This document shows, in pieces, positions 19,924 through 37,189 of a stretch of 64,000 nucleotides of DNA. The translations under genes were made by a program, and so were the position numbers. The notes below the pieces were generated by a model. That model had not been told where the DNA came from, ran no database searches, and was given only the letters and a program-made list of their open reading frames with translations. The DNA is from Acidimicrobiales bacterium (GTDB lineage: Bacteria > Actinomycetota > Acidimicrobiia > Acidimicrobiales > Iamiaceae), in the NCBI GenBank assembly GCA_035547835.1, contig DASZTW010000008.1, forward strand, positions 124,001 to 188,000, in the 5' to 3' direction. Position 1 is the first letter of the stretch. Every line of letters begins with the position of its first letter.

Positions 19924-19981
19924 TGTCCGTGCGGCGTCGAAGGCCCCGATTCTCCGGAGGACCCGACGTAGTGTCGGACCG

Positions 19982-20959: not shown

Positions 20960-21027
20960 CCCGACCTGGCGCCGCCGAACTTCGGAGGTCCTGGGGTCCT
21001 TGCACCCACAACTGCCCGGGGAACGGG

Positions 21028-21594
21028 TCAGTCGGGTGCGTGCGCCGCCTTCTGCGCGACTTGCAGCTCAGCCCACTCGTCGCCGTGGTCCTCGGCCGCG
21101 GCGTTCATGCGGCGGAGGCGGTCCGCCTGGCCGCCGGGCACCTTCATGTCGAAGGTGGTTCGCATCCGGAACTCCAACACCACCACGCCTTCGGGCCCCG
21201 CGTCGTACCCGTACGGCGCGTGGGCCGGGACGAAGAACCCCTCGCCCGCCTTGACGGTGCGGTTGCCCATGGTGAGCTCGCCCTCGGCGACGTAGTAGAG
21301 GCAGTCGGCGTCGTGCGTGTGGCGGGGCAGCACGTAGTGCGGTGCGAACCAGGTGCGGACCAGGCTGTAACCGTCGTCGCCGTCACCTCGGAACAGCACC
21401 GAGTCGAGGTTGCCGTTGAGGAGCTTGGCGCTGCGAGGCCCGTCGGCTGCCAGGTCGGCTTGATCGTCGGCGTCGAATTCCGGGAACGACATGGTCCCGG
21501 AATCGAACAGGCCCGGCCCTTTGGCGCCGAACAACGCCATGCCCTTGCGGCGCTCCGTGGCCGGGGCGGATCCGTTGGTCGGCTGGCTGTCCAT
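21028..21594 (-). CDS. Cupin-domain protein
   Basis: A 188-residue single-cupin protein. The cupin core runs from about residue 75 to 150, with the metal-type motif PRHTHDADCLYYVAEGELTMG and a second motif around FVPAHAPYGYDAG. The ATG at 21594 is preferred because the 52 codons upstream are Arg-rich and unlike protein. Probable metal-binding small-molecule enzyme or sensor. It is 94 bases downstream of the Cys-rich regulator gene on the same strand. Confidence 0.85.
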   Translation of the reverse strand: MDSQPTNGSAPATERRKGMALFGAKGPGLFDSGTMSFPEFDADDQADLAADGPRSAKLLNGNLDSVLFRGDGDDGYSLVRTWFAPHYVLPRHTHDADCLYYVAEGELTMGNRTVKAGEGFFVPAHAPYGYDAGPEGVVVLEFRMRTTFDMKVPGGQADRLRRMNAAAEDHGDEWAELQVAQKAAHAPD

Positions 21595-21688
21595 GCGGTG
21601 GCTCCCCCGTGTGCGGCCGGTCGCGCAGCCGGCTCGTCGACGACTCACTGGTCGCGCACCAGCGTAGGTCCCGCGCCGCTCTGCGCAG

Positions 21689-22372
21689 CTACGGCTTGAC
21701 GACGCGCACGCAGCAGCCGCCGGGCAACGGATCGAGCCGCGCGTCACCACGGCTGCCCGTCCCGTCGCACACCCCTTGCACGAACGCCACGTTCATGTTG
21801 CAGACGAGGTCGCGGTCCTCCTCGGCGAGCTGGTGGAACGGGCAGTTGTGCAACACGAGGTCGCGCCCGTTCTTCTCAGGCTCGTAGCCGCAGGACTCGA
21901 GGGCCTTGCGGAGTCGGCGCGCTGCGGCGCCGCGGCCTCGCTCCGGCGACGATTCGCTGCCAACGGCACGGCCTTCGGCGGTGGCGAGCTCCGCCAGCGT
22001 GCTCACGAGCGGCCGAGCCGTCCGGCGCGCGGTTGCCACCGCCCGCACGAGGAGCCGGCCGGCCAGGTCGTACCGGCGCGACGGCACGCTCACCTCCACG
22101 TCGCCCACCACTCGGTAGACCTTCGCGGGTCGTCCCGCGCCCGGGCCGCTGCGCCCGGGTGGCCGGCGGTACGACGCCCGGAGGAGGCCGTCGTCGACCA
22201 GACGGTCGAGGTGGAACTTGGCCGCGTGGTGGGCGATGCCGAGCGCCTGGGCCGCCTGCTCACGGCTCACCGGCTCGGGTTGCGCACGCACGAATGCGTA
22301 CAAGTCGCGTCGGAGCGGCTCACCGAGCGACGCCACTTGCTCGATGCGGCGTGCGAGATCGAGGTCGGTCAT
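21689..22372 (-). CDS. ArsR-like winged-helix regulator with Cys-rich C-terminal domain
   Basis: 227 residues. The N-terminal winged helix (about residues 10-75) reads SREQAAQALGIAHHAAKFHL then DRLVDDGLL. The C-terminal half has spaced cysteines: C-x15-C-x13-C-x10-C followed by GGCC near the end, including the HNCPFHQLA segment. The layout recalls iron-sulfur regulators of the SufR type, although the spacing differs and no suf genes are nearby. It is divergent from the DUF2231 gene, and a long inverted repeat lies between them. Confidence 0.8.
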   Translation of the reverse strand: MTDLDLARRIEQVASLGEPLRRDLYAFVRAQPEPVSREQAAQALGIAHHAAKFHLDRLVDDGLLRASYRRPPGRSGPGAGRPAKVYRVVGDVEVSVPSRRYDLAGRLLVRAVATARRTARPLVSTLAELATAEGRAVGSESSPERGRGAAARRLRKALESCGYEPEKNGRDLVLHNCPFHQLAEEDRDLVCNMNVAFVQGVCDGTGSRGDARLDPLPGGCCVRVVKP

Positions 22373-22448
22373 GGTCGACGTCCATTGTGATTGCCGTGGC
22401 GGGCCGGGTGCACCACGCAGCCCGCACCGGCCGTTGACAGGAGACGGC

Positions 22449-22478
22449 TTCTAACAAGTAAGATCCTATCCGTTAGAA
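22449..22478. promoter_or_regulatory. Inverted repeat between regulator and DUF2231 gene
   Basis: TTCTAAC (22449-22455) and GTTAGAA (22472-22478) form a perfect 7-bp inverted repeat with a 16-base spacer, in a conspicuously AT-rich patch. It lies 77 bases upstream of the regulator start (22372) and 57 bases upstream of the DUF2231 gene (22535). A winged-helix dimer site or paired promoter element is likely. Confidence 0.55.
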
Positions 22479-22534
22479 CAGTCGGGTGCCCGGCGCCAGG
22501 ACGCGAGGCCGGGTCGATCGAGGTAGGTGGTGCG

Positions 22535-23101
22535 ATGCGCAAGTTCTCCGTCCGGCCCACGCTCACGCTGCGGGGTCGCACGTTCAAGGGTCTCCGCGGG
22601 TGGTCCGGCAAGCCCCTCCACCCGCCGCTCACCGACTTCCCGATCGCGGCGTATCTCATCGCCGCGGTCTTCGACGTCATCTCTGCGATCGCCGGTGATC
22701 GTCATGCGTGGGCCCATGAGCTGTGGCACGCCGGGACCTTCGTCTTCTTGGCCGGCGCGGCGGTCTCGGTCTTCGCGGCGCTCACGGGCCTGTTCGACGC
22801 GTGGAAGTCGTCCGAAGCCGGCACCCAAGCTCGGCGGACCATCAACACGCACGCCACGGTCATGGTGACCGTGACGGTGCTGGCCCTGGTCGACATCGTC
22901 TGGCGCTTGAACGACTACCACACCGCACTCGTCACGCCAGTTGGGATCGTGGTGCTGTCGGTCGTGGTCGCCGCGCTGGTGTCGGTGGGTGCCACGTTCG
23001 GCGGGACGCTGGTCTACGACTACGGGTTCAACGTCGAGACGGCCGGCGACTCGCCCGTGTGGCACCAGTCGGAGACGGACGTTCTGCCGGGCGACCACTG
23101 A
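22535..23101 (+). CDS. DUF2231 membrane protein
   Basis: 188 residues with four predicted membrane helices, at about residues 35-55, 70-90, 105-125 and 140-165. The GKPLHPPLTDFPIAAYLIAAV segment (20 residues from KPLHPP) is typical of DUF2231. Function of the family is unknown; some members are linked to redox or cytochrome proteins. The ATG at 22535 follows AGGTAGGTGG. Probably controlled by the divergent Cys-rich regulator, which would suit a redox role. Confidence 0.85.
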   Translation: MRKFSVRPTLTLRGRTFKGLRGWSGKPLHPPLTDFPIAAYLIAAVFDVISAIAGDRHAWAHELWHAGTFVFLAGAAVSVFAALTGLFDAWKSSEAGTQARRTINTHATVMVTVTVLALVDIVWRLNDYHTALVTPVGIVVLSVVVAALVSVGATFGGTLVYDYGFNVETAGDSPVWHQSETDVLPGDH

Positions 23102-23160
23102 GCTCGGTCGCACGGCGGCGAGCCGGCTTCGAGGTTGTGGATGCCCGATAGCGTTTCGTC

Positions 23161-23943
23161 ATGAGCGACTCCGCCCGCATGCCCGCGCTGTTCGTCGGTC
23201 ACGGCAGCCCGATGAACACGTTGGAGCTCAACCGCTACACCACTGCGTGGCGTGAGCTCGGCGCGTCGCTGCCTCGGCCGCGGGCGATCCTCGTGGTGTC
23301 CGCACACTGGTATGTCGGCCTGACCGCGGTGACCGCGATGGCGCAGCCGCGCACCATCCACGACTTCTTCGGGTTCCCCGACGAGCTCTTCGCGTTCGAG
23401 TACCCCGCGCCCGGGGCGCCCGATGTCGCGGCCGAGGTCGCCGAAGTGGTCGCGCCGATGTGGGTCGGCCTCGACGGCGACGGCTGGGGGCTCGACCACG
23501 GCGCCTGGTCGGTCCTCGCGCACCTCTTCCCCGCGGCCGACGTTCCTGTCCTGCAGTTGTCCATCAATGCGACGGAGCCGCTGGCATACCACCTCGAGCT
23601 CGGCCGGCGCCTCGCACCGCTGCGCGATCGGGGCGTGCTGATCGTCGGCAGCGGCAATGTGGTGCACAACTTGCGGCGCATCGACTGGAGCCGCCTCGAG
23701 GGCGCACTCGACTGGGCCGAGCGGTTCGACGAGGAAGCGCGGCGCCTGATGACCACCGACCCGGCCGCGGTGCTCGACCTCGAGCGCCACGCGGACTACC
23801 CCCTCGCCGTCCCGACGCCCGACCACTTCCTCCCGCTGCTGTACCTCGCCGGAATGGCCGACGCGGAAGGTGCTGCGGCGCAGACGTTCGTCGACGGCTA
23901 CACGTTCGGGTCGCTGTCGATGACCTCATACCTGCTCACCTGA
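23161..23943 (+). CDS. 4,5-DOPA extradiol dioxygenase-like protein (LigB/YgiD fold)
   Basis: A 260-residue class III extradiol dioxygenase homologue. Metal ligands are expected at the His in [13 protein letters not shown] and [15 protein letters not shown] also matches the family. Family members open catechol-type rings such as DOPA, and several bacterial ones have unknown substrates. A second, truncated copy of the same gene type lies at 55086 behind the catalase gene. Monocistronic, followed by a hairpin. Confidence 0.9.
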
Positions 23944-23951
23944 GGCGTTCT

Positions 23952-23989
23952 TCGGAGAGTTCGGGCGCTCTCGCACCAGAACTCTCCGA
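23952..23989 (+). terminator. Hairpin after the dioxygenase gene
   Basis: TCGGAGAGTTC and GAACTCTCCGA form a perfect 11-bp stem with a 16-base loop, 8 bases after the stop. There is no T-tract, so it may be a non-canonical terminator or an mRNA-stabilising hairpin. Confidence 0.55.
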
Positions 23990-23998
23990 GCGTCGCAG

Positions 23999-24190
23999 TC
24001 ACCAGCCGCCGCCGGCGACTTGGCGAGTCGCCACGTTGAGCCGGTTCCAGACGTTGATCGGTGCGATCGTCAGCAAGATCGCGGCGAGCTGCTCCGTGTC
24101 GAACTGCTCGGCGGCTGCGTCCACACGGCGTCGGGCACCGGATCGGCCGCGTCGGCCTGAGCGGATCGCAGCGCTCGACCTCCCCGGGTG
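23999..24190 (-). pseudogene. Remnant of a carboxymuconolactone decarboxylase / AhpD-like gene
   Basis: Only the C-terminal third can be read. One frame gives AEQFDTEQLAAILLTIAPIN then VWNRLNVATRQV up to a stop at 23999, a typical AhpD/CMD ending. The piece that should precede it (ALRSAQADAADPVPDAVW) is in another frame, so there is a frameshift. The N-terminal and Cys-containing parts of the family are absent upstream. I therefore call it a decayed gene. Confidence 0.6.
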
Positions 24191-24313
24191 ATCGGCTGTG
24201 CCGCCGGCGCGAGCAACTGGGCAACGTGCCCAGCCGCGCGCGAATCGCTTGCGGGGCGACGATCTTGGTGAAAGCCTGCGCCGGCGGCGGGGCGCTGGAC
24301 GAAAGGTGGCGAC

Positions 24314-26218
24314 ATGCCAAAGTTCCGGAAGGGTCTGGCAGCGGTTGCGCTCGGCGCGTTGACCGTGCCGTTGATCGCCATCTCGGCAACCGCTTCGCCG
24401 CCGCAGGCGGCCAACCGCAAGACGCTGCCGGGTAGCGCGCCGGAGTGGGCCAACCCGACCGACCAGGCCACCACTCTGGCTGCTCCGTCGGCCTTGTCGG
24501 CTCGCGTGTACCTGGCGCCGCGAGGCGGGCAGGCGCAGCTCGACGCCGCGGTCGCTGCGGTGTCGACGCCGGGCAGCGCGACCTACCGGCACTTCTTGAC
24601 GCCTGCCCAGTACCGGGCCCGGTTCGCGCCCTCGGCGGCCGAGGTCGACTCCGTCGAGGCCTGGTTGACCGGCGCCGGCCTCCATGTCGACGGCGTCGCC
24701 GCGGGCAACCGCTCCATCTCGGTGTCGGGCACCGCGCAGGCCGTGCAGCACGCGTTCGGCGTCACGGTCGCCGAGTACCACCACAACGGGCGCGTCGAGC
24801 AGGCGCCCAGCAGCGACATCTCGGTGCCGGCGAGCATCGCGGGACAGGTCCTGGCCGTGAACGGGCTCTCGACCCCGCAGCGGGTCCAGCACTCGGTGGC
24901 TCCTCCGCCTGCTGGCTTCCGCAACGCGCAGCCGTGCTCGCAGTACTACGGCCAGGTGGTGGCGGGCTCGTTGCCGTCGTTCAACGGCACGCCCGCGCCG
25001 TACTCCGTGTGCGGCTACACGCCGTCGCAGTTCCGTTCGGCCTACGGGGTGACCGCCAGCGGTCTCACGGGCCAAGGCACCACGGTGGCGATCACCGACG
25101 CGTACGCGGCGCCCACGATCCTCGCCGACGCCAACACGTACTCCACGCGGCGCGGTGACGCGCCGTTCGGCACCGGCCAGTTCAGCCAGTCGGCGCCGGG
25201 CACGTTCACCGACGAAGACGAGTGCGACGCGAGCAGTTGGTACGGCGAGGAAACCCTCGACGTCGAAGCCGTCCACGGGATCGCGCCCGCCGCGAACGTC
25301 ACTTACTACGGCGCGGCGAGCTGCAACGACGACGACCTGCTGTCCACCTTGCAACAAGTCGTCGACGACAACCAGGCATCGATCGTCACCAACTCGTGGG
25401 GCGAGGCCGAGATGTACGAGACCTCGGGTTCGGTCGCCGCGTACGAGCAGGTGTTCCAGCAGGGTGCCATGCAGGGCATCGGCTTCCTGTTCTCGTCGGG
25501 TGACAGCGGCGACGAGCGTGCGGCCACCCACCGCATCCAGACCGACTACCCGACCTCGGACCCGTACGTGACGAGCGTTGGAGGTACCAGCGACGCCATC
25601 GCGGCCAACGGCACGTTCCAGTTCCAGACCGGGTGGGGCACCGACAAGTACGTCCTGTCGAAGAACGGCAAGATCTGGCAGCGCGCCAACCCCTTCTACC
25701 TGTACGGCGCCGGTGGTGGGGTGTCCCGGCTGTCGCCCCAGCCCGCGTACCAGCACGGCGTCGTGCCGCCGGGTGGCCGCAACGGCCGGGCCGTGCCCGA
25801 CATCGCCATGGACGCCGATCCGACCACCGGCATGCTGATCGGTGAGACCCAGACGTTCCCCGACGGCGTGTACTACGACGAGTTCCGCCTCGGCGGCACC
25901 AGCCTCGCGTCACCGCTGATGGCCGGCATGCAGGCTTTGGCCACCCAGGCGGCGGGCGGACGCCTCGGCTTCGCCAACCCCGCCATCTACCAGCGGGCTC
26001 GGACGGCCGGGGTCTACCGCGACGTCACGCTGCGCCCATACGGGCTGGGCAACGTCCGGGCCGACTACGCGAACGGGATCAACGGCGACGGCGGCGTGGT
26101 GTACAGCCTGCGAACCTTCGGCGACGACGCCACGCTCCAGGCCGCGTCCGGGTGGGACGACGTCACCGGTGTCGGCACACCCACCGCTCGCTATCTCGCG
26201 TCATACGCCGTGGGCTGA
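24314..26218 (+). CDS. Secreted S53 peptidase (sedolisin/kumamolisin type)
   Basis: 634 residues: a Sec signal peptide (about 1-28, KGLAAVALGALTVPLIAISA), an activation propeptide (about 50-190) and a subtilisin-fold catalytic domain. The acidic catalytic pair is in EETLDVEAVHG near residue 310, the oxyanion Asp region is FLFSSGDSGDE, and the serine is in GGTSLASP near residue 530. Sedolisins are acid-acting endopeptidases that mature by autocleavage. The ATG at 24314 is set by the signal peptide. It converges with the methyltransferase gene across a long hairpin. Confidence 0.93.
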   Translation: MPKFRKGLAAVALGALTVPLIAISATASPPQAANRKTLPGSAPEWANPTDQATTLAAPSALSARVYLAPRGGQAQLDAAVAAVSTPGSATYRHFLTPAQYRARFAPSAAEVDSVEAWLTGAGLHVDGVAAGNRSISVSGTAQAVQHAFGVTVAEYHHNGRVEQAPSSDISVPASIAGQVLAVNGLSTPQRVQHSVAPPPAGFRNAQPCSQYYGQVVAGSLPSFNGTPAPYSVCGYTPSQFRSAYGVTASGLTGQGTTVAITDAYAAPTILADANTYSTRRGDAPFGTGQFSQSAPGTFTDEDECDASSWYGEETLDVEAVHGIAPAANVTYYGAASCNDDDLLSTLQQVVDDNQASIVTNSWGEAEMYETSGSVAAYEQVFQQGAMQGIGFLFSSGDSGDERAATHRIQTDYPTSDPYVTSVGGTSDAIAANGTFQFQTGWGTDKYVLSKNGKIWQRANPFYLYGAGGGVSRLSPQPAYQHGVVPPGGRNGRAVPDIAMDADPTTGMLIGETQTFPDGVYYDEFRLGGTSLASPLMAGMQALATQAAGGRLGFANPAIYQRARTAGVYRDVTLRPYGLGNVRADYANGINGDGGVVYSLRTFGDDATLQAASGWDDVTGVGTPTARYLASYAVG

Positions 26219-26282
26219 ACCCGGCCCACCAGCAGCGCCCACCAGCGGAGCCCACCGGCGGCGCCGGGCCCCAAGTCCCCGA

Positions 26283-26327
26283 GCTGTGAGCACTTGGCCA
26301 CCTCGGGGGTGGCCAAGTGCTCACAGC
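26283..26327. terminator. Perfect 20-bp hairpin, copy 1, between convergent genes
   Basis: Arms GCTGTGAGCACTTGGCCACC (26283-26302) and its exact complement (26308-26327) with loop TCGGG. It lies between the sedolisin and methyltransferase genes, so it could terminate both. A near-identical element is at 31539-31583, where one stem pair is changed on both sides. Confidence 0.7.
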
Positions 26328-26359
26328 GGGGATGCGGTTGGGGCGGCGGGGGCGCGGGC

Positions 26360-27481
26360 TCAGCCGTGCAGGCGGTAGAAGCGGAACATGTCGTGCTCGA
26401 TCGGCAGGATCTCGACCGTCGAGTAGCCCGCGTCGGTCGCATAGCGCTCGAGGGTGGCGGTGCGAAGGACGGTTCCCGTGGCGGCGGAATCCGGTTCGCT
26501 GCGACCGACGGGCAGGCAGTGCAGCACGCTCGCCGCGTAGAAGAGGTGCTGCATCGGGTCGGGGTCATTCGGGGTCAGCGCGTCGGCCGCCCGCTCGTCG
26601 ACCACGAACACCGCACCATCGGGGGCAGCGAGCTGTCGCATGGCGGCCAGCGCCTCCACCGGGTGGGCCATGTCGTGCAAGGCCTCGAAGCAGCACACGA
26701 GGTCGTAGCCGCTGCCTTCCTCGGTGGCGGCGTCGCGCACGTGGAAGCGAGCGCGGTCGCCCACTCCCGCGGCGGCAGCGTTCGCCTTGGCGGCGTCGAT
26801 CGACGCGGCATCGCTGTCGAACCCGTCGACGGTCGCGCCCGGGAACGCGCGTGCTGTGGCGATCGACGCCCAACCGCTCCCGCAGCCCAGTTCCGCCACT
26901 CGACCACCGTCGCCTTGGAGCCGCGCCACTACGTCGGGCATCGTCGGCAGCCAATCCGCGGCGAGCAGGTTGGTGAACTGCGGGCGGTTCGCTCCCTCCT
27001 GCGCCCGGCGGACCCATTCGCCGTAGCCGGCGAACGAGATGCCGGTCCCGTTGCGGTAGGCCTCGACCAGCTCCGGCAGGACCGCGGGACCGGCGGTCGC
27101 GAACGTGGCCAGCGGCGCCACACACGCCAGGCTGTCCGGGTCGAGCAGGCAGGCCTGGTGGGCGACCGGCAACGAGAACACCCGCCGGTCGGGATCACCG
27201 TCGGTGGGCTCGACGTCGACTGACGCGATGCCGGCCGTCGCTTGCTGCTCCAGCCACTCGCGGGCGTAGCGGGCGTCGATCTTCGCCGCGCGGGCCAGCT
27301 CCGGCGGGGTCTTGGGGCCCTGCGCCAGCGACGCGTACAGGCCCAGCCGCATCCCGAGCTCGATCGTGGCGAGCTCGAAGGTGCCGATCGTGGCCATGGC
27401 CACGCGCTGGGCGAACGCGCCGATCGCCGTGGCCAGCTCGTCGGCGGCCTGGTGGGTGGGTTCGGTGGTGGTCGTGGACAT
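26360..27481 (-). CDS. SAM-dependent methyltransferase with N-terminal winged-helix-like domain
   Basis: A 373-residue class I methyltransferase. The N-terminal 110 residues form a winged-helix-like dimerisation domain as in O-methyltransferases (GTFELATIELGMRLGLYASL, TPPELARAAKIDARYAREWL). SAM motif I is VAELGCGSGWA at about residues 195-205, followed by VDGFDSD. Substrate unknown. The ATG at 27481 is chosen; the 36 codons upstream cross the operator region. Divergent from the large ATPase gene, with a palindrome between the two. Confidence 0.88.
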   Translation of the reverse strand: MSTTTTEPTHQAADELATAIGAFAQRVAMATIGTFELATIELGMRLGLYASLAQGPKTPPELARAAKIDARYAREWLEQQATAGIASVDVEPTDGDPDRRVFSLPVAHQACLLDPDSLACVAPLATFATAGPAVLPELVEAYRNGTGISFAGYGEWVRRAQEGANRPQFTNLLAADWLPTMPDVVARLQGDGGRVAELGCGSGWASIATARAFPGATVDGFDSDAASIDAAKANAAAAGVGDRARFHVRDAATEEGSGYDLVCCFEALHDMAHPVEALAAMRQLAAPDGAVFVVDERAADALTPNDPDPMQHLFYAASVLHCLPVGRSEPDSAATGTVLRTATLERYATDAGYSTVEILPIEHDMFRFYRLHG

Positions 27482-27513
27482 CGGTCTCCTCCTCGGATCG
27501 CTCGACCAGAAGG

Positions 27514-27532
27514 CGCCAGATCGGGTCTGGCG
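27514..27532. promoter_or_regulatory. Operator-like palindrome, copy 1
   Basis: CGCCAGA-TCGGG-TCTGGCG is a perfect 7-bp inverted repeat with a 5-base spacer. It lies 33 bases upstream of the methyltransferase start (27481) and 27 bases upstream of the ATPase start (27559). A second copy precedes the acetyltransferase gene at 30765, which marks the three genes as one regulatory unit. Confidence 0.65.
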
Positions 27533-27558
27533 TCGCCAGCCGCCGATAGCGTGCGCGC

Positions 27559-30500
27559 ATGGGGGATGGGTCGAGCGACGTCGGTGCACCCATCCGGCGC
27601 GCTTTGGTCGCGGCGTTCAGGGCGGCCGGTGAGGCCAACGGCCGTCTGGTCCTGCTCACCGGCGACGCCGGGATCGGCAAGACGACCGCCGCTCGCGAGC
27701 TGGCAGAGCTGGCCCGACGATCAGGTGCGACCGTGCGGTGGGCGGCCTGCTGGCCCGGCGGCGCCACGGTCGCCCACGGCCCGTGGGTCACGTTGCTGTC
27801 TGGCCTCGGCGGCGCGGGGGCGCGGGCGGTCGGGACGCTGTCGACAGCCCCCGGCGACGAGACGGCAGCCGCCACCTCCGCGCGCGCATCGGCGTACGCG
27901 GAGGTGGCCCAGGCCCTCGAAGCGGCGAGTGCGAGCCGGACCATTGTCCTGGTGCTCGACGACCTGCAATGGGCTGACGAAGGCACCGTGCAACTTCTCG
28001 CCGCCGTCGTGGGCAACTTGCCGGGCCTGCCCGTTCTCGTGGTCGGCACGTATCGCGACACCGAGGTGGCGGCGGGTTCGCCGTTGCGACAGCTCGGCGC
28101 GTCGGCGGAGCGTTTCGCGCTCACCGGTCTCGACGTCGGTGGTGTTGGCGGGATCCTGGCGGAGATCGTCGGTGGCGAACGGGCCGCTGCGCTCGCCGCC
28201 GAGACCCATCGCCGCACCGGCGGCAACCCGTTCTTGGTCGTGCAGCTCGGGCGGCTCTTCGCGGGCGATCCGTCCGCCCTCGAGCACGGCACGCTGCCCG
28301 CCGGCGCTCGCGATCTGCTCGAGGGTCGCCTCGCAGGACTCGCCACTGCCGATCGAGGAGTCGTGGTGGCCGCCGCCGTGCTCGGCAGCCGCTTCACCGG
28401 CCGCGACGTCGCGGCCGTGCTGGGCGCCGAGGCGACGTCCGGCGCGCTGGAGCGCGCGGCGGGGCTGCGGATCCTCGAGCGCGCGCCGGGCGTGGGTGTG
28501 TGGTCGTTCGTGCACGAGCTGTTCCGCCAAGCGGTGCTCGATGCGGCCGACCCCGAAGCCGTGCGCCGGCTCCACCGCCGCGCCGCCGCCTCCTTGGCGG
28601 CGGTTGATGCCGAGCCCGCGGTCGTTGCGCGTCACCTGCTCGAAGCTGCAGACGGCGGTTCCGCCGACGCGGCGTGGTGGCTGGTCCGTGCGGGCGACCG
28701 TGCCATCAGCTCCATGGCGTGGGAGGAGGCGAAAGGTCACTACGAGCGGGCGCTGGCGGCGCTGCCGGTAGGCGATCGAGGCCACGACGACACCCGCGCC
28801 GCGGCGCTGCTCGGCCTCGGCCGCGCCCGGTTGCTGGACGGGGACGGAGCCGGCGCGGGACGCGCGTTCGTGCAAGCAGCCGAGCTGGGGGACCGGATCG
28901 GGTCCGTCTCGCTGCTGGCGCAAGCGGCGCTGGCGTTCAGCCTCGACCTGTCGGGTTTCGAGGTGCGGCTGTACGACCAACGCCAGATCGACTTGCTGGA
29001 GCGGGCGGCGCGAGCGCTCGCCGGCAGCGGGTTGCTCGGGTTGGAAGCCACCGTGCTCGCGAGGTTGTCGGTGGCCCTGTCGCTCGCGGCATCGCCGGTG
29101 CGCCGACTCCAGCTCGCGGAGCGGTCCGTCGAGCTCGCCCGCCAGGCGGATGAGCCGGCCGTGCTGGCCAGGGCGTTGGCGGCGCATTGCGACGCGATGG
29201 CGTCACCGGACCATGTCGACAGGCGCCTGCGCGAGGCGAGTGAGGTCGTGGCGATCGGCGAGCGCGTCGGCGACGGCCCGCTCGAGCTGCTCGGCCGGCG
29301 GCTGCGGTACGTCGCGTTGCTGGAGCGTGGCGACGCAGCAGGCGCCCACGACGAGATTGCCGCCTTCGCTCGCCGGGCCGACATCGTCGCCAACCCGCTC
29401 TACTCCTGGTGCGTTCCGCTTTGGCGTGGTCAAGAGGCTCTGGTGGCCGGCGATCTGGCCGGCTGCGAGCAGGCCATCGCCGAAACCGCGGCGTGCGGGA
29501 TCGCGGCCGGCAGCACCAACGCACCGTTGCTCGCGACCGTGCTCGGGCTGGTGCTGTCCCTGGTCCGGGGTGACTTCGTGCAGGTCATCGAGCGGATCGA
29601 TTCGCTCGTCGACGACGCGCCGGAGTTGGTGCCGTACATCACCACCGGCGGCGCGTTCGCCAGGGCGCTCGCCTTGGCCGGCGACGCGTCAGGTGCAACG
29701 GCCGTGCTCGACAGGTGGCAGGGCGCCGGTCTCGACCACGTGCCGTTCGATGGCGGGTGGTTGTCGGAGCTGGCGATGGTGGTCGCCGCAGCAACCCTCG
29801 TCGACCACCCAGTGCTCGCCGACGCGGTGGCCCGGCTCGAACCGTACGCTGAGCTGGTTGCCTTCGAGGGCATCGGCGCTGGGTTGTACGGCGCCGTCGC
29901 CGGCTTCCTCGCAGCGGGAGCCCGGGCCCTCGGTCGGCACGACGACGCCGAACGTCACGCCCGCCAGGCGCTCGAGATCAACCGTCGCTTCGGTGGGGTG
30001 CTGCTGGCCGAAGCGCATCGCACGCTGGCCGACGTGCTCGGCGGCGGCCCGGAAGCTGCGTGGCACGATGCGGCGGCGAACGACGCATATCGGACCCTCG
30101 GCCTCGACCGCCTGGTGCGCCGCGGACCGTCGGGCAGCGCGCGGCCGTCGGGTGGCGCGCGGGCGAGCGAGAGTGAAGCGGCAGACGTCGCGCCGGCGGC
30201 CAGTCCCGTCAACGAGCTGCGCCGCGATGGCGAGGTCTGGCAGGTGTCGTTCGCCGGCCAGACGACCATCGTGAAGCACAGCAAAGGTGTGGCCGACCTG
30301 GCGGTGCTGCTCGCCTCGCCGGGCCGCGAGGTGCACGTCGCCGAGCTCGAAGGCGTCCCGGTTGCAGCGGTCACGACAGCTGGCGACGAAGTGCTCGACC
30401 GCCAAGCCATCGCCGCGTACCGCGAGCGCCTCGCAGATCTCGCCACCGAGATCGATGACGCCGACGCCTCCCACGACCTCGGCCGAGCGGAGCACGCCCG

Positions 30501-30768
30501 CATCGAGTACGACGCGCTGGTCGACCAGCTCGCTGGAGCGGTCGGTCTGGCCGGCCGGGCCCGCCGGTCGGCCAGCAACCCCGTCGAGCGCCTCCGCAAG
30601 GCAGTGTCGGCTCGCATCCGCGACGCCATCCGCCGAATCGACGCGGTCCACCCTGCGCTCGCCCGGCACCTCACCAACGCGGTGCGCACCGGCACGTACT
30701 GCTCCTACCAACCCGAGCAGCCCACCGCCTGGCGGTGCCAGACGCGATCTGGCGCCCAGGAGGCATGA
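27559..30768 (+). CDS. Large STAND/AAA-type ATPase, MalT/LuxR-like but without LuxR HTH
   Basis: 1069 residues. Walker A is GDAGIGKT (35-42) and Walker B is IVLVLDDLQWAD near residue 132-143, as in LuxR-type LAL regulators. A long helical TPR-like region follows (about 350-860). The C-terminal 170 residues do not look like a LuxR HTH; they contain the block VSFAGQTTIVKHSKGVADLA seen at the ends of other actinobacterial ATPases, and a helical segment rich in Arg. It is probably a signalling or regulatory ATPase. Its last bases overlap the acetyltransferase start in an ATGA, and they contain a copy of the operator-like palindrome. Confidence 0.8.
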   Translation: MGDGSSDVGAPIRRALVAAFRAAGEANGRLVLLTGDAGIGKTTAARELAELARRSGATVRWAACWPGGATVAHGPWVTLLSGLGGAGARAVGTLSTAPGDETAAATSARASAYAEVAQALEAASASRTIVLVLDDLQWADEGTVQLLAAVVGNLPGLPVLVVGTYRDTEVAAGSPLRQLGASAERFALTGLDVGGVGGILAEIVGGERAAALAAETHRRTGGNPFLVVQLGRLFAGDPSALEHGTLPAGARDLLEGRLAGLATADRGVVVAAAVLGSRFTGRDVAAVLGAEATSGALERAAGLRILERAPGVGVWSFVHELFRQAVLDAADPEAVRRLHRRAAASLAAVDAEPAVVARHLLEAADGGSADAAWWLVRAGDRAISSMAWEEAKGHYERALAALPVGDRGHDDTRAAALLGLGRARLLDGDGAGAGRAFVQAAELGDRIGSVSLLAQAALAFSLDLSGFEVRLYDQRQIDLLERAARALAGSGLLGLEATVLARLSVALSLAASPVRRLQLAERSVELARQADEPAVLARALAAHCDAMASPDHVDRRLREASEVVAIGERVGDGPLELLGRRLRYVALLERGDAAGAHDEIAAFARRADIVANPLYSWCVPLWRGQEALVAGDLAGCEQAIAETAACGIAAGSTNAPLLATVLGLVLSLVRGDFVQVIERIDSLVDDAPELVPYITTGGAFARALALAGDASGATAVLDRWQGAGLDHVPFDGGWLSELAMVVAAATLVDHPVLADAVARLEPYAELVAFEGIGAGLYGAVAGFLAAGARALGRHDDAERHARQALEINRRFGGVLLAEAHRTLADVLGGGPEAAWHDAAANDAYRTLGLDRLVRRGPSGSARPSGGARASESEAADVAPAASPVNELRRDGEVWQVSFAGQTTIVKHSKGVADLAVLLASPGREVHVAELEGVPVAAVTTAGDEVLDRQAIAAYRERLADLATEIDDADASHDLGRAEHARIEYDALVDQLAGAVGLAGRARRSASNPVERLRKAVSARIRDAIRRIDAVHPALARHLTNAVRTGTYCSYQPEQPTAWRCQTRSGAQEA
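30736..30754. promoter_or_regulatory. Operator-like palindrome, copy 2
   Basis: TGCCAGA-CGCGA-TCTGGCG, the same 7-5-7 design as 27514-27532 with one mismatch in the left arm. It lies inside the last codons of the ATPase gene and 10 bases before the acetyltransferase start, so it could give the acetyltransferase its own regulated promoter. Confidence 0.6.
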
Positions 30769-31520
30769 CGACACTCGCCGACACCTCGACGTTCACCGAG
30801 CGGGCGTTGGCCGCCACCGCCGACCGCTTCGTCCACTTGGCCCGCTCCAGCGGGCGGCCGTACCGGGTCGACGACGACTTGGCGGTCGCGTGGCAGGGCC
30901 CTCGCGGCTTCTACACCAACGTCGCGTGTGTGTTGTCGGCCGAGCCGGACTGGAACTCGGTGCTGGCACGGGTCGATGAGGTCGTGCCGCGCCCCGCGCC
31001 CGCGTTGGTCATCACCAGCGCGATGGAGCCCGACCTGGCGCCGTCGGGGTTCCAGGCCATCGGACGCCCGCCGCTGATGGTGCGCCCGGCGGGACCGTCC
31101 GAACACACCATCCCAGCCGAGCTGACGATCACCGAGGTGGTCGACGAAGCTGGCCTCGAAACCTTCGAGCACACCTTGGTCGACGCCTATCCCGAGCCGT
31201 TGATGCAGCCGTACCGGTGGGGCGAGTTCAACGATGCGCGGGTGCTCGGCGGTCCGACACACTTCTTCACCGGCTACGTGGCCGGTCGGCCGGTGGCCAC
31301 CGCGGCCGGTCACGTCGCGGCCGGCGTGAACCTGGTCGAGTTCGTCGCCACGATGCCCGACGCTCGCGGTCGCGGCTACGGCGAAGCGGTCACCTGGGCC
31401 GCCACGTCGGCCGATCCGACGCTGCCCGCTGTCTTGACCGCCAGCGACCTCGGCCGTCCGGTGTATGAGCGGATGGGCTACCTCGCGGTCTCGCGTTGGT
31501 CGCTGTGGTTCCGCCCCTGA
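30765..31520 (+). CDS. GNAT-family N-acetyltransferase
   Basis: 251 residues. The acetyl-CoA-binding motif A is ARGRGYGEAVTWAA near residue 205, followed by VYERMGYLAV near the C-terminus, as in GNAT proteins. The N-terminal half is less conserved. The ATG at 30765 follows AGGAGG and overlaps the ATPase stop, so the two are coupled. Substrate unknown. Confidence 0.87.
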   Translation: MTTLADTSTFTERALAATADRFVHLARSSGRPYRVDDDLAVAWQGPRGFYTNVACVLSAEPDWNSVLARVDEVVPRPAPALVITSAMEPDLAPSGFQAIGRPPLMVRPAGPSEHTIPAELTITEVVDEAGLETFEHTLVDAYPEPLMQPYRWGEFNDARVLGGPTHFFTGYVAGRPVATAAGHVAAGVNLVEFVATMPDARGRGYGEAVTWAATSADPTLPAVLTASDLGRPVYERMGYLAVSRWSLWFRP

Positions 31521-31538
31521 CCCTCCAAACCCCATCGA

Positions 31539-31583
31539 GCTGTGAGCAGTTGGCCACCTCCAGGGTGGCCAACTGCTCACAGC
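31539..31583. terminator. 20-bp hairpin, copy 2, between convergent genes
   Basis: Arms GCTGTGAGCAGTTGGCCACC (31539-31558) and its exact complement (31564-31583) with a 5-base loop TCCAG. Compared with copy 1 at 26283, the eleventh stem pair is G-C instead of C-G, changed on both sides. It overlaps the last codons and stop of the CoA ligase gene ending at 31577 and follows the acetyltransferase gene. Bidirectional terminator or mobile palindrome. Confidence 0.7.
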
Positions 31584-33124
31584 AGGGATGGTTTGGCCGG
31601 GGGGCCTGCGCGGTCGCGGTACGCGTCGCGCAGGCGGCGCTTGTAGATCTTTCCGTTGTCTTCGCGGGGGAGCTGATCGGTGAACTCGACGAACCGGGGG
31701 CACTTGAAGTGCGCGAGGCGCGCCCGGCAGTGCTCGATCAGCTCGGCGGCCAGGGCGTCGCTGGCCTCGATCCCGTCTCTCAGCTCCACGACCGCGAGGA
31801 CCGACTCGCCCCACTCCGGATCTGGGACGCCGATCACCGCGGCGTCGCCGACAGCAGGGTGCTCGAGCAGCGCCGCGTCGACCTCGGCGGGGTAGACGTT
31901 GACCCCTCCCGAGATGATCAGGTTCGCGTTGCGGTCGGTGACGAACAGGTAGCCGTCGTCGTCGAGGTAGCCGATGTCGCCGAGGGCGAAGTACCCGCCG
32001 CGGTACGTCGAGTCGGTCTTCGCGTCGTCCTTGAAGTAGCGGAACTGACCGGTGGGCGGCGCCTTGATGTAGACGAGGCCGACTTCGCCCGCGGCGAGCG
32101 GCGCGCCGGTCTCGTCGCCGATGATGACCTGACCCCTGCCCAAGGGTCGCCCGACCGTGCCCGGCCGCTGCAACCACGTTGGCGAGTCGACCATGCTGCC
32201 AACCCCTTCGGTCGCCGCGTAGTACTCCCACACCACTGGACCGAACCACTCGATGATCGCCTGCTTGACCGGCACCGGGCAGGGGGCTGCGCCGTGCAGC
32301 ACGTGACGCAAGCTCGACAAGTCGGCCGCGGCCCGATCCTCCTCGGGCAGGGCGAGCAGCCGGTGGAACATGGTGGGCACCATGTGCGTGTGCGTCACGT
32401 GGTGCTCGCCGATCAACCGCAGCGCTTCGGCGGCGTCCCAATGGTCCATCGTCACGACCGTGGCACCGAACGTGAGCGGGATCGTCAGTGAGAAGGCAAG
32501 GGGCGCGGCGTGGTACAGCGGTCCCGTGCAGAGGTGCACGTCGCCGCCAGTTTCGATGTAGCCGTACAAGTTCCGAGCGGGCTCGGCCGGAACCGGGGGG
32601 CGGTACACACCTTTGGGGCGGCCAGTGGTGCCCGACGTGTAGAGCATCGTCGTGCCGGGAGCATCAACGTCGTCGAGCGGGTCACCGGGTTCGGCTTCGA
32701 GCGCAGCGCGGTAGCTGTCGGACCCTGCCGCATCGGGTCCCGCCACCAGGCAGACCTCGCAGGCGGCTGCGCCGGCCAGGCCGTCGCTCGCAAGGGCCGC
32801 GAGCTCGGTGGTGGTGACCAGCGCTTTCGCTTCGCAGTCGCCGATGATGTACCCGGCCTCGTCGGGCGCGAGGTGCCAGTTGATCGGCGTCAGCCGGTAG
32901 CCGCCGGCACGGCACGCGTACACCGTCTCGACGAACGCCGGCCCGTTGCCGGCGAGGAGGGCGACGGCGTCGCCGGGCTCGAGCCCGCGCGATCGCAGCG
33001 CCCGGGCCAGCCGGTTGGCGTTCCCGTCGAGTTCGGCGAACGTCCGGCTGCCGGCAGGCGAGGTGAAGGCCAAGGCGTCGGGGGTTGCTGCGGCCCACTG
33101 GCCGAGGTCAGCCATGCCGGTCAT
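31577..33124 (-). CDS. AMP-forming acyl-CoA synthetase (class I AMP-binding)
   Basis: 515 residues. The adenylation loop is LYTSGTTGRPKGVYRPP, the A5 region is WEYYAATEG, and the hinge and C-terminal lysine regions are GDIGYLDDDGYLFVTDR and DNGKIYKRRL. It activates a carboxylic acid to its CoA thioester; FadD-like, substrate unknown. The start at 33124 overlaps the DUF35 gene by 17 bases; an alternative ATG at 33115 gives a 3-residue shorter protein. Third gene of the operon with the thiolase-like and DUF35 genes. Confidence 0.9.
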   Translation of the reverse strand: MTGMADLGQWAAATPDALAFTSPAGSRTFAELDGNANRLARALRSRGLEPGDAVALLAGNGPAFVETVYACRAGGYRLTPINWHLAPDEAGYIIGDCEAKALVTTTELAALASDGLAGAAACEVCLVAGPDAAGSDSYRAALEAEPGDPLDDVDAPGTTMLYTSGTTGRPKGVYRPPVPAEPARNLYGYIETGGDVHLCTGPLYHAAPLAFSLTIPLTFGATVVTMDHWDAAEALRLIGEHHVTHTHMVPTMFHRLLALPEEDRAAADLSSLRHVLHGAAPCPVPVKQAIIEWFGPVVWEYYAATEGVGSMVDSPTWLQRPGTVGRPLGRGQVIIGDETGAPLAAGEVGLVYIKAPPTGQFRYFKDDAKTDSTYRGGYFALGDIGYLDDDGYLFVTDRNANLIISGGVNVYPAEVDAALLEHPAVGDAAVIGVPDPEWGESVLAVVELRDGIEASDALAAELIEHCRARLAHFKCPRFVEFTDQLPREDNGKIYKRRLRDAYRDRAGPPAKPSLL

Positions 33125-33527
33125 CCCGGAGCGTGAACATCGGCAAGTTGCGGCCGTCCGGCAGTGGCTCCCAGGTGACCGCGACGGACGCGCCGACCGC
33201 GACCGAGGCGGGGTCGACTTCGACCACGTTCGCCATCATGCGGATGCCGTCGTCGAGGTCGATGAGCGCCACGGCGTACGGCGCGCGGTCGGCGAGGCGT
33301 GGGTCTTGTGGCCGGTGCTCGACCGTGACGGCGTACACGCGACCTGTTCCGGCCGAAGGCCGCCACTCGAGGTCGGTGCCGAGGCAGCCGGGGCAGAAGT
33401 CGCGGGGGTACCAGAACGGCTCCGCGCACGTTCGGCACCACTGCACGGTGAGGCGTTGCTCACGCGTGGCGTCCCAGAACGGGGCGGTGGTCGCCGAGGT
33501 GGGCGGTTCCGGTCGAGCGTCGCTCAC
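33108..33527 (-). CDS. DUF35 zinc-ribbon/OB-fold protein
   Basis: A 139-residue acyl-CoA-associated OB-fold protein. A zinc ribbon is formed by C31, C34, C45 and C48 (CRTCAEPFWYPRDFCPGC), followed by a beta-rich OB domain. Proteins of this family are obligate partners of thiolase-like or hydratase proteins in steroid side-chain degradation. The GTG at 33527 overlaps the TGA of the thiolase-like gene in a GTGA, which supports complex formation between the two products. Confidence 0.88.
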   Translation of the reverse strand: MSDARPEPPTSATTAPFWDATREQRLTVQWCRTCAEPFWYPRDFCPGCLGTDLEWRPSAGTGRVYAVTVEHRPQDPRLADRAPYAVALIDLDDGIRMMANVVEVDPASVAVGASVAVTWEPLPDGRNLPMFTLRDDRHG

Positions 33528-34708
33528 AACGTGTCCTCCGTCCCGAGCACGAGGGTCGACATGCACGACAGCACCATCCCCGAGCCGTGTGCCACGGCGA
33601 GCTGCGCATCGGGAACCTGCCGTTGGTCGGCTTCGCCGCGCAGCTGCCGCACGGCTTCGACGATGAGGAACATGCCGTACATCCCGGGGTGCGTGTACGA
33701 CAGGCCGCCGCCGTTGGTGTTCATGGGCAGCGAGCCGCCGGGGCCGGTGCGCCCGTCCTCGACGAACGCCCCGCCTTCGCCTTTGGCGCAGAATCCGAGG
33801 TCTTCGAGATGGAGCAGCGCGGTGATCGTGAAGCTGTCGTAGCCCATCAGCACGTCGATGTCGTCGGGCTTCACGCCGGCCATGGCGAACGCCGCCGGGC
33901 CGCTCACGACGCCCGGCGTCACGGTCAGGTCCGGCATCTGGGAGATCATCTGGTGGTCGTGTGATGTCGACGCGCCGAGCACGTAGATGGGCGGCTTCGC
34001 CAGCGTCGCCGCCCGCTCCGCGCTGGTCAGGACGAACGCACCGGCGCCGTCGGTGACCACGCAGCAGTCGAGCCGGTGCAGCGGGCTCGACTCCATCGGC
34101 GACGCGAGTACGTCGTCGATCGTGATCGGGTCCTGGTAACGGGCCCTGGGGTTGCGGCTCGCCCACCCGCGCGTGCTCACCGCGATCTGTGCGAGCTGTT
34201 CCGACGTGGTCCCGTACTGAGCCATGTGGCGCGACGCGGCCAGCGCGTACGGTCCCATCGGCATCCGCAAACCGTACGGTCGCTCGAACTCGCCCATGGG
34301 GTCGTAGCCGCCCACACCCATGCCGGGGAAGCGGCCGCGGACCTTGCGCTTGCGGTCGCTGCGTGGGGTCGCGGCGTACACGCCCACCACCACCTCGCAC
34401 ACGCCGGCGGCGATGGCGGCGGCGGCGTGCTCGACGTGTACCTCGAAGCTCGACCCGCCCGTGTTGGTGGACTCGGTGAACTTGGTGTCGGTGATGCCGA
34501 GGTGCTCGGCGAACGAAACCGACGACGCGTGGTGGCACACGCCGTCGACGTCGGCGAGCGTGAGGCCGGCATCGTCGAGCGCTTCGCGCACCATCGCCGC
34601 TTCGAGCGCGCGCCCGTACAGGTCGAGCTCGCCGGTGGGTGAGACGGCGTCGGCGACACCGACGAGCGCGGCGGCGCCGCGCAAGGTCCGGTCGTGTCGG
34701 TTGGTCAC
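33524..34708 (-). CDS. Thiolase-like protein (SCP-x/Ltp2-like aldolase candidate)
   Basis: 394 residues of thiolase fold, GTG start. At the position of the acylated Cys the sequence reads TNTGGSSFEVHVEHAAAAI, so the nucleophile Cys is missing. The late segment MNTNGGGLSYTHPGMYG keeps the His region in altered form. Cys-less thiolase-like proteins paired with DUF35 proteins include the Ltp2-type retro-aldolases of sterol side-chain loss. A C-C lyase role is therefore more likely than thiolysis. Coupled to the DUF35 gene by a 4-base overlap. Confidence 0.82.
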   Translation of the reverse strand: MTNRHDRTLRGAAALVGVADAVSPTGELDLYGRALEAAMVREALDDAGLTLADVDGVCHHASSVSFAEHLGITDTKFTESTNTGGSSFEVHVEHAAAAIAAGVCEVVVGVYAATPRSDRKRKVRGRFPGMGVGGYDPMGEFERPYGLRMPMGPYALAASRHMAQYGTTSEQLAQIAVSTRGWASRNPRARYQDPITIDDVLASPMESSPLHRLDCCVVTDGAGAFVLTSAERAATLAKPPIYVLGASTSHDHQMISQMPDLTVTPGVVSGPAAFAMAGVKPDDIDVLMGYDSFTITALLHLEDLGFCAKGEGGAFVEDGRTGPGGSLPMNTNGGGLSYTHPGMYGMFLIVEAVRQLRGEADQRQVPDAQLAVAHGSGMVLSCMSTLVLGTEDTL

Positions 34709-34790
34709 GATGCGTTCATAGCGCGATCGCGGGCGCTTCGTCGGACGACGCTCTGGTCTGGTTGCCCTCGTGGCCCGCCGACACGAACAC

Positions 34791-34822
34791 CGCCGCGGCC
34801 GCCTCAGCGAGCGGCCGCGGCG
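34791..34822 (-). terminator. GC-rich hairpin after the SDR gene
   Basis: A perfect 12-bp stem CGCCGCGGCCGC with an 8-base loop, starting 9 bases after the SDR stop (minus-strand direction). It would end the CoA ligase-SDR transcript and separate it from the thiolase-like operon at 34708. There is no T-tract. Confidence 0.55.
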
Positions 34823-34831
34823 TGCGCGTGG

Positions 34832-35593
34832 CTACTTCGGTGCGAAGCGCTGGCCGGCGTCGAGCCGGAGGCACTGGCCGTTGAGCATCGGGTTGTCGAC
34901 GATGGCGCACACCAACTTGGCGTACTCCTCCGGGCGACCCATGCGCTTCGGGAAGGCGGCATCTTTGGTGAGGGCCTTCTCGAACTCCTCAGGGATGCCC
35001 TTGGTGAGGCCGGTGCCGAACAGGCTCGGGGCGATGGCCAAGGCGCGGATGCCGAGGCTGCCGAGGTCGCGAGCCATGGTGAGGCACATGCCGGCGATGC
35101 CGGCCTTCGCCGCGGTGTACGCCACTTGGCCGATCTGGCCCTCGAACGCCGCGATCGACGCGGTGTTGATGATGACCCCGCGCTCTTCGTCCTCGGGCTC
35201 GTTCCTGCTCATGTGATCCGCGGCCAGCCGGCTGATGTTGAACGCCGAGATCAAGTTGAGCTCGATGCACTGGCGGAACTCGTCGATCGGGTGCGGGCCC
35301 TCGCGCGTGAGGGTGCGCTTGCCGATGCCGCCGCCGGCCGTGTTGACGCTGATGTGGATGCCGCCGAGGGCCTCGGCCGCGCCGTTGATGGCAGCTTCGG
35401 TGGCTTCGTCGTCCATGACGTTCACCGGGAAGAAGCCGACGCCGCCCAGCTCCTTGTTCACGGCTTCCCCCGCCGACGTGGGCAGGTCGAGGATGGCGAT
35501 CTCCGCCCCGCGCTCTTTCAACATGGCCGCCGACGAGTTGGCCATGCCGGAGGCGCCCCCGACGATGATCGCCTTCTTTCCCTTGATGTCCAC
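34832..35593 (-). CDS. SDR-family oxidoreductase, HSD10/3-hydroxyacyl-CoA dehydrogenase-like
   Basis: A 253-residue short-chain dehydrogenase. The cofactor loop is IIVGGASGMANSS near residue 9-21, a variant of TGxxxGxG, with Asp at the end of strand 2 (AILDLP) favouring NAD. The catalytic Tyr and Lys are in AYTAAKAG. The TLTREGPHPIDEFRQCIELN segment and overall length resemble type 2 3-hydroxyacyl-CoA dehydrogenases. The GTG at 35593 follows AAGGAG. It lies 14 bases downstream of the CoA ligase gene. Confidence 0.88.
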   Translation of the reverse strand: MDIKGKKAIIVGGASGMANSSAAMLKERGAEIAILDLPTSAGEAVNKELGGVGFFPVNVMDDEATEAAINGAAEALGGIHISVNTAGGGIGKRTLTREGPHPIDEFRQCIELNLISAFNISRLAADHMSRNEPEDEERGVIINTASIAAFEGQIGQVAYTAAKAGIAGMCLTMARDLGSLGIRALAIAPSLFGTGLTKGIPEEFEKALTKDAAFPKRMGRPEEYAKLVCAIVDNPMLNGQCLRLDAGQRFAPK

Positions 35594-35607
35594 AGATGCT
35601 CCTTGTT

Positions 35608-37164
35608 TCAGGTTGTTGCGGTCTGCTGCGCGTACTCGTCTTTCAGCCAGCGCTTGTAGAGCTTGCCCGTCTCGGTGCGCGGGAGCACATCGCGGAAGTC
35701 GACCGAGCGTGGGCACTTGTAGCCGGCGAGGCGGTCGCGGCAGTACGCGATGAGCTCGGCCGCCAGCTCGTCGCTCGGCGTGGCCGCGTCGACGAGCTCG
35801 ACGATGGCCTTGACCGACTCGCCCCACTCGTCATCGGGCACGCCGATCACGGCCACGTCGTTGACGAGCGGATGAGCGCTCAGCACGCCTTCGATCTCCG
35901 CGGGATAGATGTTGACGCCGCCGCTGATGATCATGTCCTTCGCCCGGTCGCGCAGGAACAGGTAGCCGTCGTCATCGAGGAAGCCGACGTCGCCGAGGGT
36001 GAACGCCTTGCCGCGGTGGACCGACGCGGTCAGCTCCGGGTCGTCTCGGTACTCGAAGGTGCGAGAAGTCGATTCCAGGTACACGTTGCCGGTCTCGCCG
36101 CGGGGCACCTCGTTGCCGTGGTCGTCGAGGATCTTGATGGCCATGCCCTTGACGGCCCGTCCGACGGTGCCCGGCTTCTCCAACCAGCGGTGAGGTTTGG
36201 CGATGGCCGCCGCGCCTTCCATGCCGCCGTACGTCTCCCAGATCACCGGGCCCCACCACTCGAGCATCTGGCGTTTGACCTCGAGCGGGCACGGCGCGGC
36301 CGAGTGCACGACCACCCGGAGACTCGACAAGTCGTACTTCCTACGAACGTCGTCGGGCAGGCGCAGGAGGCGCACGAACTGCGTGGGCACCATGTACGCC
36401 GTGGTCACCCGGTGCTGCTCGATCATCTGGAGCGTGCGCGCCGCGTCGAACTTGCCCATGATCGCCACTGCCTGGCCGACGGTCAGCGCGCCTTGGTAGA
36501 AGCTCTGGCAGCCGCCGTGGTGCATGCCGGCCGACACCAGGTGCACGCCGTCGAAGGGTATGAACTGGAACGCCCGGCCGAACAGCTTCATGGAGTCGGC
36601 GATGGCAGAAGGGTCGCCGGGGACCGACGGGCGCGCGATGGCCTTCGGCTTCCCGGTGGTGCCCGACGAATACGAGATCGGGGTGCCGAAGCTGCGGTCG
36701 GTGGGCTCGGTGGTGGGCTGCCCGGCGACCAGCTCGTCGTACGGCTCGAAGCCGTCGATCGCGCCGCCCACGCTCACGCGGACCTTGATCGACGTGGCGT
36801 CGGTGAGCTCAGCCGACTGCGCGTAGCTGTGGTCGACCACGATCGCCGCCGCGCCCGAGTGCTCGACCACCGCGCGGATCTCGTTGCCGGACAGCGCAGG
36901 GTTCAGCGCGATCGCGTGCATGCCCGACTCTTGGAGCGCGTACTGCCACCACACGATGTCGATGTCGTTCGGCAGCGCGTACGCCACGATGTCGCCGGTG
37001 GCGAGACCGCGGGCGCGCAGCCCATGCACGATCTGGTGCGCCCGACCCGCGAGTTCGCCGAACGTCGCGGTGCGGCCCGACGCGGAGTCGACGATCGCAG
37101 GCTGGTCAGGTCGATCTTCTGCGATCCACCACAGGCCGAGTCGTTGGTCCCACGGATGTCGCAC
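35608..37164 (-). CDS. AMP-forming acyl-CoA synthetase
   Basis: 518 residues. The ATP loop is ISYSSGTTGKPKAIARP, the aromatic/acceptor region is IWETYGGMEG, and the C-terminal catalytic Lys is in RTETGKLYKRWL. FadD-like; it makes CoA thioesters of an unknown acid. The GTG at 37164 leaves only 25 bases to the divergent enoyl-CoA hydratase start, and the GTATAC operator fills that gap. Its minus-strand -10-like TATACT lies 8 bases from the GTG, so the transcript is probably leaderless. Confidence 0.9.
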   Translation of the reverse strand: MRHPWDQRLGLWWIAEDRPDQPAIVDSASGRTATFGELAGRAHQIVHGLRARGLATGDIVAYALPNDIDIVWWQYALQESGMHAIALNPALSGNEIRAVVEHSGAAAIVVDHSYAQSAELTDATSIKVRVSVGGAIDGFEPYDELVAGQPTTEPTDRSFGTPISYSSGTTGKPKAIARPSVPGDPSAIADSMKLFGRAFQFIPFDGVHLVSAGMHHGGCQSFYQGALTVGQAVAIMGKFDAARTLQMIEQHRVTTAYMVPTQFVRLLRLPDDVRRKYDLSSLRVVVHSAAPCPLEVKRQMLEWWGPVIWETYGGMEGAAAIAKPHRWLEKPGTVGRAVKGMAIKILDDHGNEVPRGETGNVYLESTSRTFEYRDDPELTASVHRGKAFTLGDVGFLDDDGYLFLRDRAKDMIISGGVNIYPAEIEGVLSAHPLVNDVAVIGVPDDEWGESVKAIVELVDAATPSDELAAELIAYCRDRLAGYKCPRSVDFRDVLPRTETGKLYKRWLKDEYAQQTATT

Positions 37165-37167
37165 CTA

Positions 37168-37183: not shown

Positions 37184-37189
37184 GTATCC

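Follow-up and report, generated by a model that had tools for sequence, protein, structure and literature searches.

A probable REP-like family of hairpins at gene 3´ ends in an Acidimicrobiales genome

The well-studied repetitive extragenic palindromes (REPs) are mostly proteobacterial, and a GTAG foot and a RAYT transposase go with them. Published REPs are located between convergent and unidirectional ORFs, adjoin the 3´ ends of genes and often supply the stop codon, and those of the CGTC super-family have no dedicated transposase (PMC3733652). In long REPs an irregular zone is required by the transposase (PMC8266576), and REPs serve as targets for insertion sequences (PMC1525189).

Here, we followed up two hairpins in a window of 64,000 nucleotides (the whole stretch of DNA that was analysed). 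They are best read as members of a new REP-like family, which resembles the REP repeats of E. coli, and we put the probability that they are copies of such a family at about 80%. The family agrees with REP elements as described in the literature (PMC3733652, PMC8266576, PMC12306157) in where it is located, how many copies it has, its irregular stem, its clusters, its lineage-specific families and its provision of stop codons.

The two hairpins and their genome-wide family

Both inverted repeats that had been pointed out in a sequence-only reading of the window are present, with 20-nucleotide arms that are 100% complementary and a 5-nucleotide loop (Table 1). As had been stated there, the sequences of the two copies differ at one stem pair (C-G versus G-C) and in the loop, and the likeness of the flanks (GA and GGGATG) is real. 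The stem pair is number 11 and the loops are TCGGG and TCCAG, respectively; the flanks are alike because they belong to the family consensus. With TGTGAGCANTTGGCCACC and up to three mismatches, five matches were obtained in the window versus 0.09 expected in shuffles, and the predicted RNA folding energies of the two hairpins are -42 to -43 kcal/mol (z about -8 to -11). Chance is no explanation for them. An Rfam scan of the window gave only one tRNA above the gathering score, and the hairpins match no Rfam family. In the extended stem of copy 1 the left flank is rich in A/C and the right flank in G/T, both being part of the weakly conserved family flanks.

Table 1. Hairpins and neighbouring genes in the window
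Feature	Coordinates	Strand	Remarks
REP-like hairpin (probable class), copy 1	26283..26327	.	GCTGTGAGCACTTGGCCACC - TCGGG - GGTGGCCAAGTGCTCACAGC
Core of copy 1	26285-26325		TGTGAGCA...TGCTCACA
Extended imperfect stem, copy 1	26268..26344	.	predicted fold of 26265-26345
REP-like hairpin (probable class), copy 2	31539..31583	.	GCTGTGAGCAGTTGGCCACC - TCCAG - GGTGGCCAACTGCTCACAGC
Core of copy 2	31541-31581
Extended imperfect stem, copy 2	31521..31601	.	CCAAACC/GGTTTGG; predicted fold
Kumamolisin/S53-like protease gene	24314..26218	+	ends 66 nt before copy 1 core
Methyltransferase gene	26360..27523	-	ends 34 nt after copy 1 core; start codon approximate
GNAT acetyltransferase gene	30735..31520	+	ends 20 nt before copy 2 core
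AMP-binding ligase gene	31577..33124	-	stop codon within copy 2
TGA stop of AMP-binding ligase	31577..31579	-	inside hairpin arm TGTGAGCA

The two hairpins are not a special pair, they are two members of a family of about 100 short palindromic repeats. In the genome (G000; 3.70 Mb in 22 contigs, 71% GC, order Acidimicrobiales) the pattern TGTGAGCA-N25-TGCTCACA was found at 93 sites with up to one mismatch, and the reversed control gave none. An independent anchor in the inner part, TTGRCCACC-N5-SGTGG, yielded 108 matches (control 0), nearly all of them at the same sites. Altogether, at least 98 hairpin copies in at least 72 clusters were located, both numbers being lower bounds since copies in which both arms have diverged would be missed by the search. 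The scan for further stems that had been proposed from the sequence alone supports the repeated palindrome family that had been given there as part of the second alternative.

With the copies oriented according to the better conserved arm, the family consensus reads CSTGC-TGTGAGCA-CTTGR-CCACC-NNNNN-GGTGG-YNNNS-TGCTCACA-GCASG, with flanks that are A/C-rich on the left and G/T-rich on the right across the 72 clusters. The span is constant at 41 nucleotides, the loop is fixed at 5 nucleotides and the outer arms are constant, the invariance of TGTGAGCA being partly ascertainment because TGTGAGCA was the search key. A typical copy is an imperfect hairpin, in which the outer arm TGTGAGCA is followed by a mostly unpaired 5x5 middle, the inner stem CCACC/GGTGG and the loop. 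All five middle positions are paired in 17 of the 98 copies, and it is the 5-nucleotide middle of the second arm that usually remains unpaired. The perfect 20-bp stem is found in only 11 of the 98 copies, which are otherwise mostly polar and imperfect; thus, copies 1 and 2 are the unusual, perfect ones. In a subset of copies the second arm is CGCGCACA, with two mismatches.

Hairpins also occur in tandem with a period of 73 bp (14 cases). Arrays of three to five hairpins with a period of 72-74 bp are located at C17:38007-38340 (L111) and C17:353430-353614 (L116) and can be used as a marker of recent expansion.

A second, unrelated MITE-like repeat of about 115 bp (consensus GAGGCGAGCCGATAGGCGAGCCGACCCATCAACACGGCGCCTGTTCGCCAGGCGCAGCCTGGCGAATCGAACGGTGACCCGCGACTCGGGCGACCTATCCGCGCAGGTC) was observed in the window at 8089-8185 (+) and 19810-19927 (-). 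On its own it is present at about 20 places in the genome, and several of its copies are flanked by CYRAG-like direct repeats. Several hairpin copies also carry it as an insertion in their middle arm, and hairpins split at the CCAAG/CTGAG arm middle were seen at L086:4463-4616, L109:2501-2655, L123:2501-2655, L157 and L170. A 154-bp parent element, first suggested by orphan half-sites, was rejected: its interior of 108 nucleotides is found alone at many places without the TGTGAGCA ends and is therefore an independent MITE-like repeat inserted in the hairpin. Part of the variation in the hairpin middle could stem from footprints left by excision of this repeat.

Position of the hairpins relative to genes

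Genes were called with a simple home-made caller trained on codon usage and seeded from a few unambiguous genes, and element-free gaps of 40-700 nucleotides at the same loci were used as baseline. According to these calls the 98 copies are nearly all intergenic. Convergent genes surround 36 of the 72 clusters, codirectional genes 30 and divergent genes 6, compared to 22, 81 and 51 baseline gaps, respectively (convergent excess versus the rest, Fisher p 3e-8). The nearest stop codon is usually less than 30 nucleotides away from the cluster, and codirectional copies have a median distance of 20 nucleotides to the upstream stop versus 120 nucleotides to the downstream start. The sequence-only reading had placed the two window copies between convergent genes. 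Both gene pairs are indeed convergent (Table 1), and the family as a whole is strongly enriched at gene 3´ ends, where terminators are located.

In 19 clusters the TGA in TGTGAGCA is the stop codon of the neighbouring gene, and at five further gene ends the stop is the TGA of CTTGA. Copy 2 of the window overlaps the last codons of the ligase gene on the minus strand and provides its TGA stop. Copies with the CGCGCACA/CGCTCACA arm were noted at L057, L079, L092, L098, L114 and L116; in six of seven codirectional cases this arm is on the downstream side of the transcript of the upstream gene, a possible strand bias in small numbers.

Base-pair variation within and between genomes

The base-pair swap between the two window copies had been taken as covariation and thereby as a sign either of selection on the structure or of a mobile palindrome family used as terminators. 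The swap itself is present; as a sign of selection it is weak evidence, because the pair is mismatched in 19 of the 72 clusters and matching exceeds independence only weakly. With each arm read on its own strand, so that identical letters mean pairing, the swap pair (positions 8/32) is C-C in 47 clusters, G-G in 6, C-G in 17 and G-C in 2. Matched pairs therefore number 53, compared to 46 if the arms were independent (p=0.012), and the two letters vary nearly independently. At the five middle positions the native arms pair slightly better with each other than swapped arms do (z=3.0). A tendency towards complementarity in the hairpin middle is thus present but weak, with mismatched states being common, and the swap between the two window copies is ordinary variation within the repeat family.

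In the flanks of the clusters no covariation was detected, since flank pairing was no better than with the flanks swapped. The pair at -4/44 relative to TGTGAGCA, just outside the stem, consists of two identical letters, read on one strand, in 51 of the 72 clusters (G/G in 26, C/C in 25). It is complementary in 20 clusters versus 36 expected, thus significantly anti-complementary, and this mismatch seems to be maintained.

With up to two mismatches, 13 sites were found in G021 (same family, other genus) and 20 in G276 (same order, other family), and none in the control. The hairpins of both genomes have the outer arms, the span of 41 nucleotides and the loop of 5 nucleotides as in G000; the inner stems differ, being GTCGA/TCGAC in G021 and GCCGC/GCGGC in G276 (CCACC/GGTGG in G000). 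Among the genomes searched, strong families are present in these three only, each with an inner stem of its own. In G276, 15 of 16 clusters are located no more than 76 nucleotides away from a gene 3´ end, the median distance being about 19 nucleotides. When 51 copies from several genomes were aligned without gaps, pairing was 93.5% for the outer 10 pairs, 93.3% for the inner 5 pairs and only 63% for the middle, and two-sided changes were observed at all five inner-stem pairs. Covariation is stronger between lineages than within G000 and represents few evolutionary events, because copies within one genome share them. Across genera, conservation of the hairpin is highest in the outer arms, in a comparison in which arms and span were fixed by the search.

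The exact symmetric pattern matched no other GTDB genome. A looser pattern was found in Acidimicrobiales MAGs and as scattered single matches in unrelated taxa, which look like chance matches. In an unrelated actinobacterial MAG (L054:818-858) a perfect TGTGAGCAGTTGACGTAG hairpin adjoins, as judged by eye, the apparent end of an RNase P RNA gene.

Alternative readings and comparison with known systems

A possible, though not probable, alternative is that the hairpins are primarily bidirectional intrinsic terminators and that their likeness reflects the spread of a good terminator. Like Rho-independent terminators they are stable, GC-rich hairpins (very stable as predicted) directly downstream of genes, right behind stop codons and between convergent genes, and they can be used from both strands; the A/C-rich left and G/T-rich right flanks also fit this reading. 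However, they have no U-tract and their downstream flank is G-rich, and a terminator scan of 20001-40000 reports neither of the two hairpins. Moreover, a terminator requires a structure but not an invariant arm of 8 nucleotides common to families of an order; here, the arm sequence is conserved across copies and genera, and in many copies the stem is weakened by mismatches. The missing U-tract argues against a classical intrinsic terminator, termination still being possible in an actinobacterium with 71% GC. It is very improbable that the two copies are matched boundary elements around a mobile methyltransferase/ATPase/acetyltransferase cassette. They do flank this block, but each is simply located at a convergent gene junction, and six neighbouring cluster pairs are at most 5.3 kb apart in the genome versus about seven expected at random. 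Two clusters at this distance are expected by chance, so no cassette is implied, and the bracketing of the block, to which the sequence-only reading had drawn attention, is not meaningful.

The hairpins might instead be old, independently maintained structured RNAs, in which selection for pairing made the C-G to G-C change. The complementarity of the middle arms, the slight excess of matches at pair 8/32 and the covariation of inner stems between lineages are consistent with this, but we consider it unlikely, given how often this very pair is unpaired, the lack of flank covariation in the clusters and the anti-complementary position -4/44. In addition, perfect stems can also come from template-switch correction of a quasi-palindrome. 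It is quite unlikely that the hairpins are paired double-stranded sites at which a protein recognises TGTGAGCA, be it as regulatory, nucleoid or uptake-signal sites. The conservation of the outer arms across genera would suit such a protein, but half-sites on their own are not in excess: of the 179 half sites in the 416 kb sampled, nearly all are within paired or MITE-split copies, and only two lie singly in genes, where about six are expected by chance. Divergent gaps, which bear promoters, are avoided. An uptake signal predicts many single copies within genes, and a DNA uptake signal was rejected since single half-sites are not enriched.

If the hairpins are a REP-like family, its amplification within genomes would depend on an enzyme that recognises the outer arms and the irregular hairpin, probably in the form of a folded single strand. 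Copies would be tolerated or kept mainly where they land after a stop codon, and would there be transcribed as 3´ UTR hairpins. Such hairpins, very stable by prediction, might block 3´-to-5´ RNA decay and thus slow it, or might assist termination on both sides of a convergent pair. More tentatively, and with considerable doubt as to the whole, we propose an Acidimicrobiales-wide, RAYT-less REP-like family whose polar hairpin would have invariant TGTGAGCA arms, a middle that must be irregular and, just outside the stem, an S-S mismatch that is maintained. The family would be amplified by a putative ssDNA enzyme recognising the outer arms, and its inner stem would be replaceable between lineages. 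With a REP habit without GTAG or RAYT, outer arms that are kept across genera and an inner stem that is exchanged, the Acidimicrobiales family would be well suited to finding out, in a clean system, what makes REPs spread without RAYT. It also calls for caution: when two repeats differ by one base change on both sides, this should not be read as evidence of a selected RNA structure.

The family shares with Correia-type repeats and MITEs with terminal inverted repeats that it is repeated, palindromic and intergenic with nested insertions. In contrast to these, no target-site duplication was detected at the hairpins (no direct repeat above background for boundaries 3-24 nucleotides outside the core), and the 154-bp long forms are due to the nested other repeat. 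A weak direct-repeat signal at 0-2 nucleotides outside the core stems from position -4/44.

The hairpins are filed as REP-like and not as GTAG or CGTC REPs because both tags and the transposase were tested for and not found. A GTAG tag is present in 0 of 72 clusters within 14 nucleotides of either end. CGTC is located within 14 nucleotides outside either end in only 24% of the clusters, consistent with degenerate flank sequence and not with a tag. RAYT/Y1_Tnp (PF01797) gave no match in G000 (96.7% complete), G021 and G276, with positive controls being detected; the one Y1_Tnp match was in G091, a genome with at most three doubtful hairpin copies and two control matches.

Compared to the REP/BIME elements of Enterobacteriaceae with TnpA-REP group 2 (PMC8266576), the family is of similar size, has many copies, is extragenic and located behind stops, and likewise has an imperfect stem with a conserved irregular zone and tandem or clustered copies. 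It differs in lacking a GTAG foot, in that no TnpA-REP/RAYT gene was found, and in its fixed span of 41 nucleotides and its other conserved arms. The GTAG and CGTC super-families (PMC3733652) are similar in their location in convergent and unidirectional gaps less than about 20-30 nucleotides from 3´ ends and in the provision of stops, with the difference that the hairpins supply TGA and not TAG; as for CGTC REPs, no dedicated transposase was found. The insertion of the MITE-like repeat into hairpins agrees with published REPs, which are known as targets of insertions (PMC1525189). In the broad sense, REP elements are short palindromes (about 20-40 bp) that are extragenic and present in many copies, as is the 41-nucleotide hairpin family. 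Their preference for 3´ ends and for convergent or unidirectional gaps is found here (36/30/6 versus 22/81/51) and also in G276, and their patchy, lineage-specific families, homogenised per genome, have a counterpart in G000, G021 and G276.
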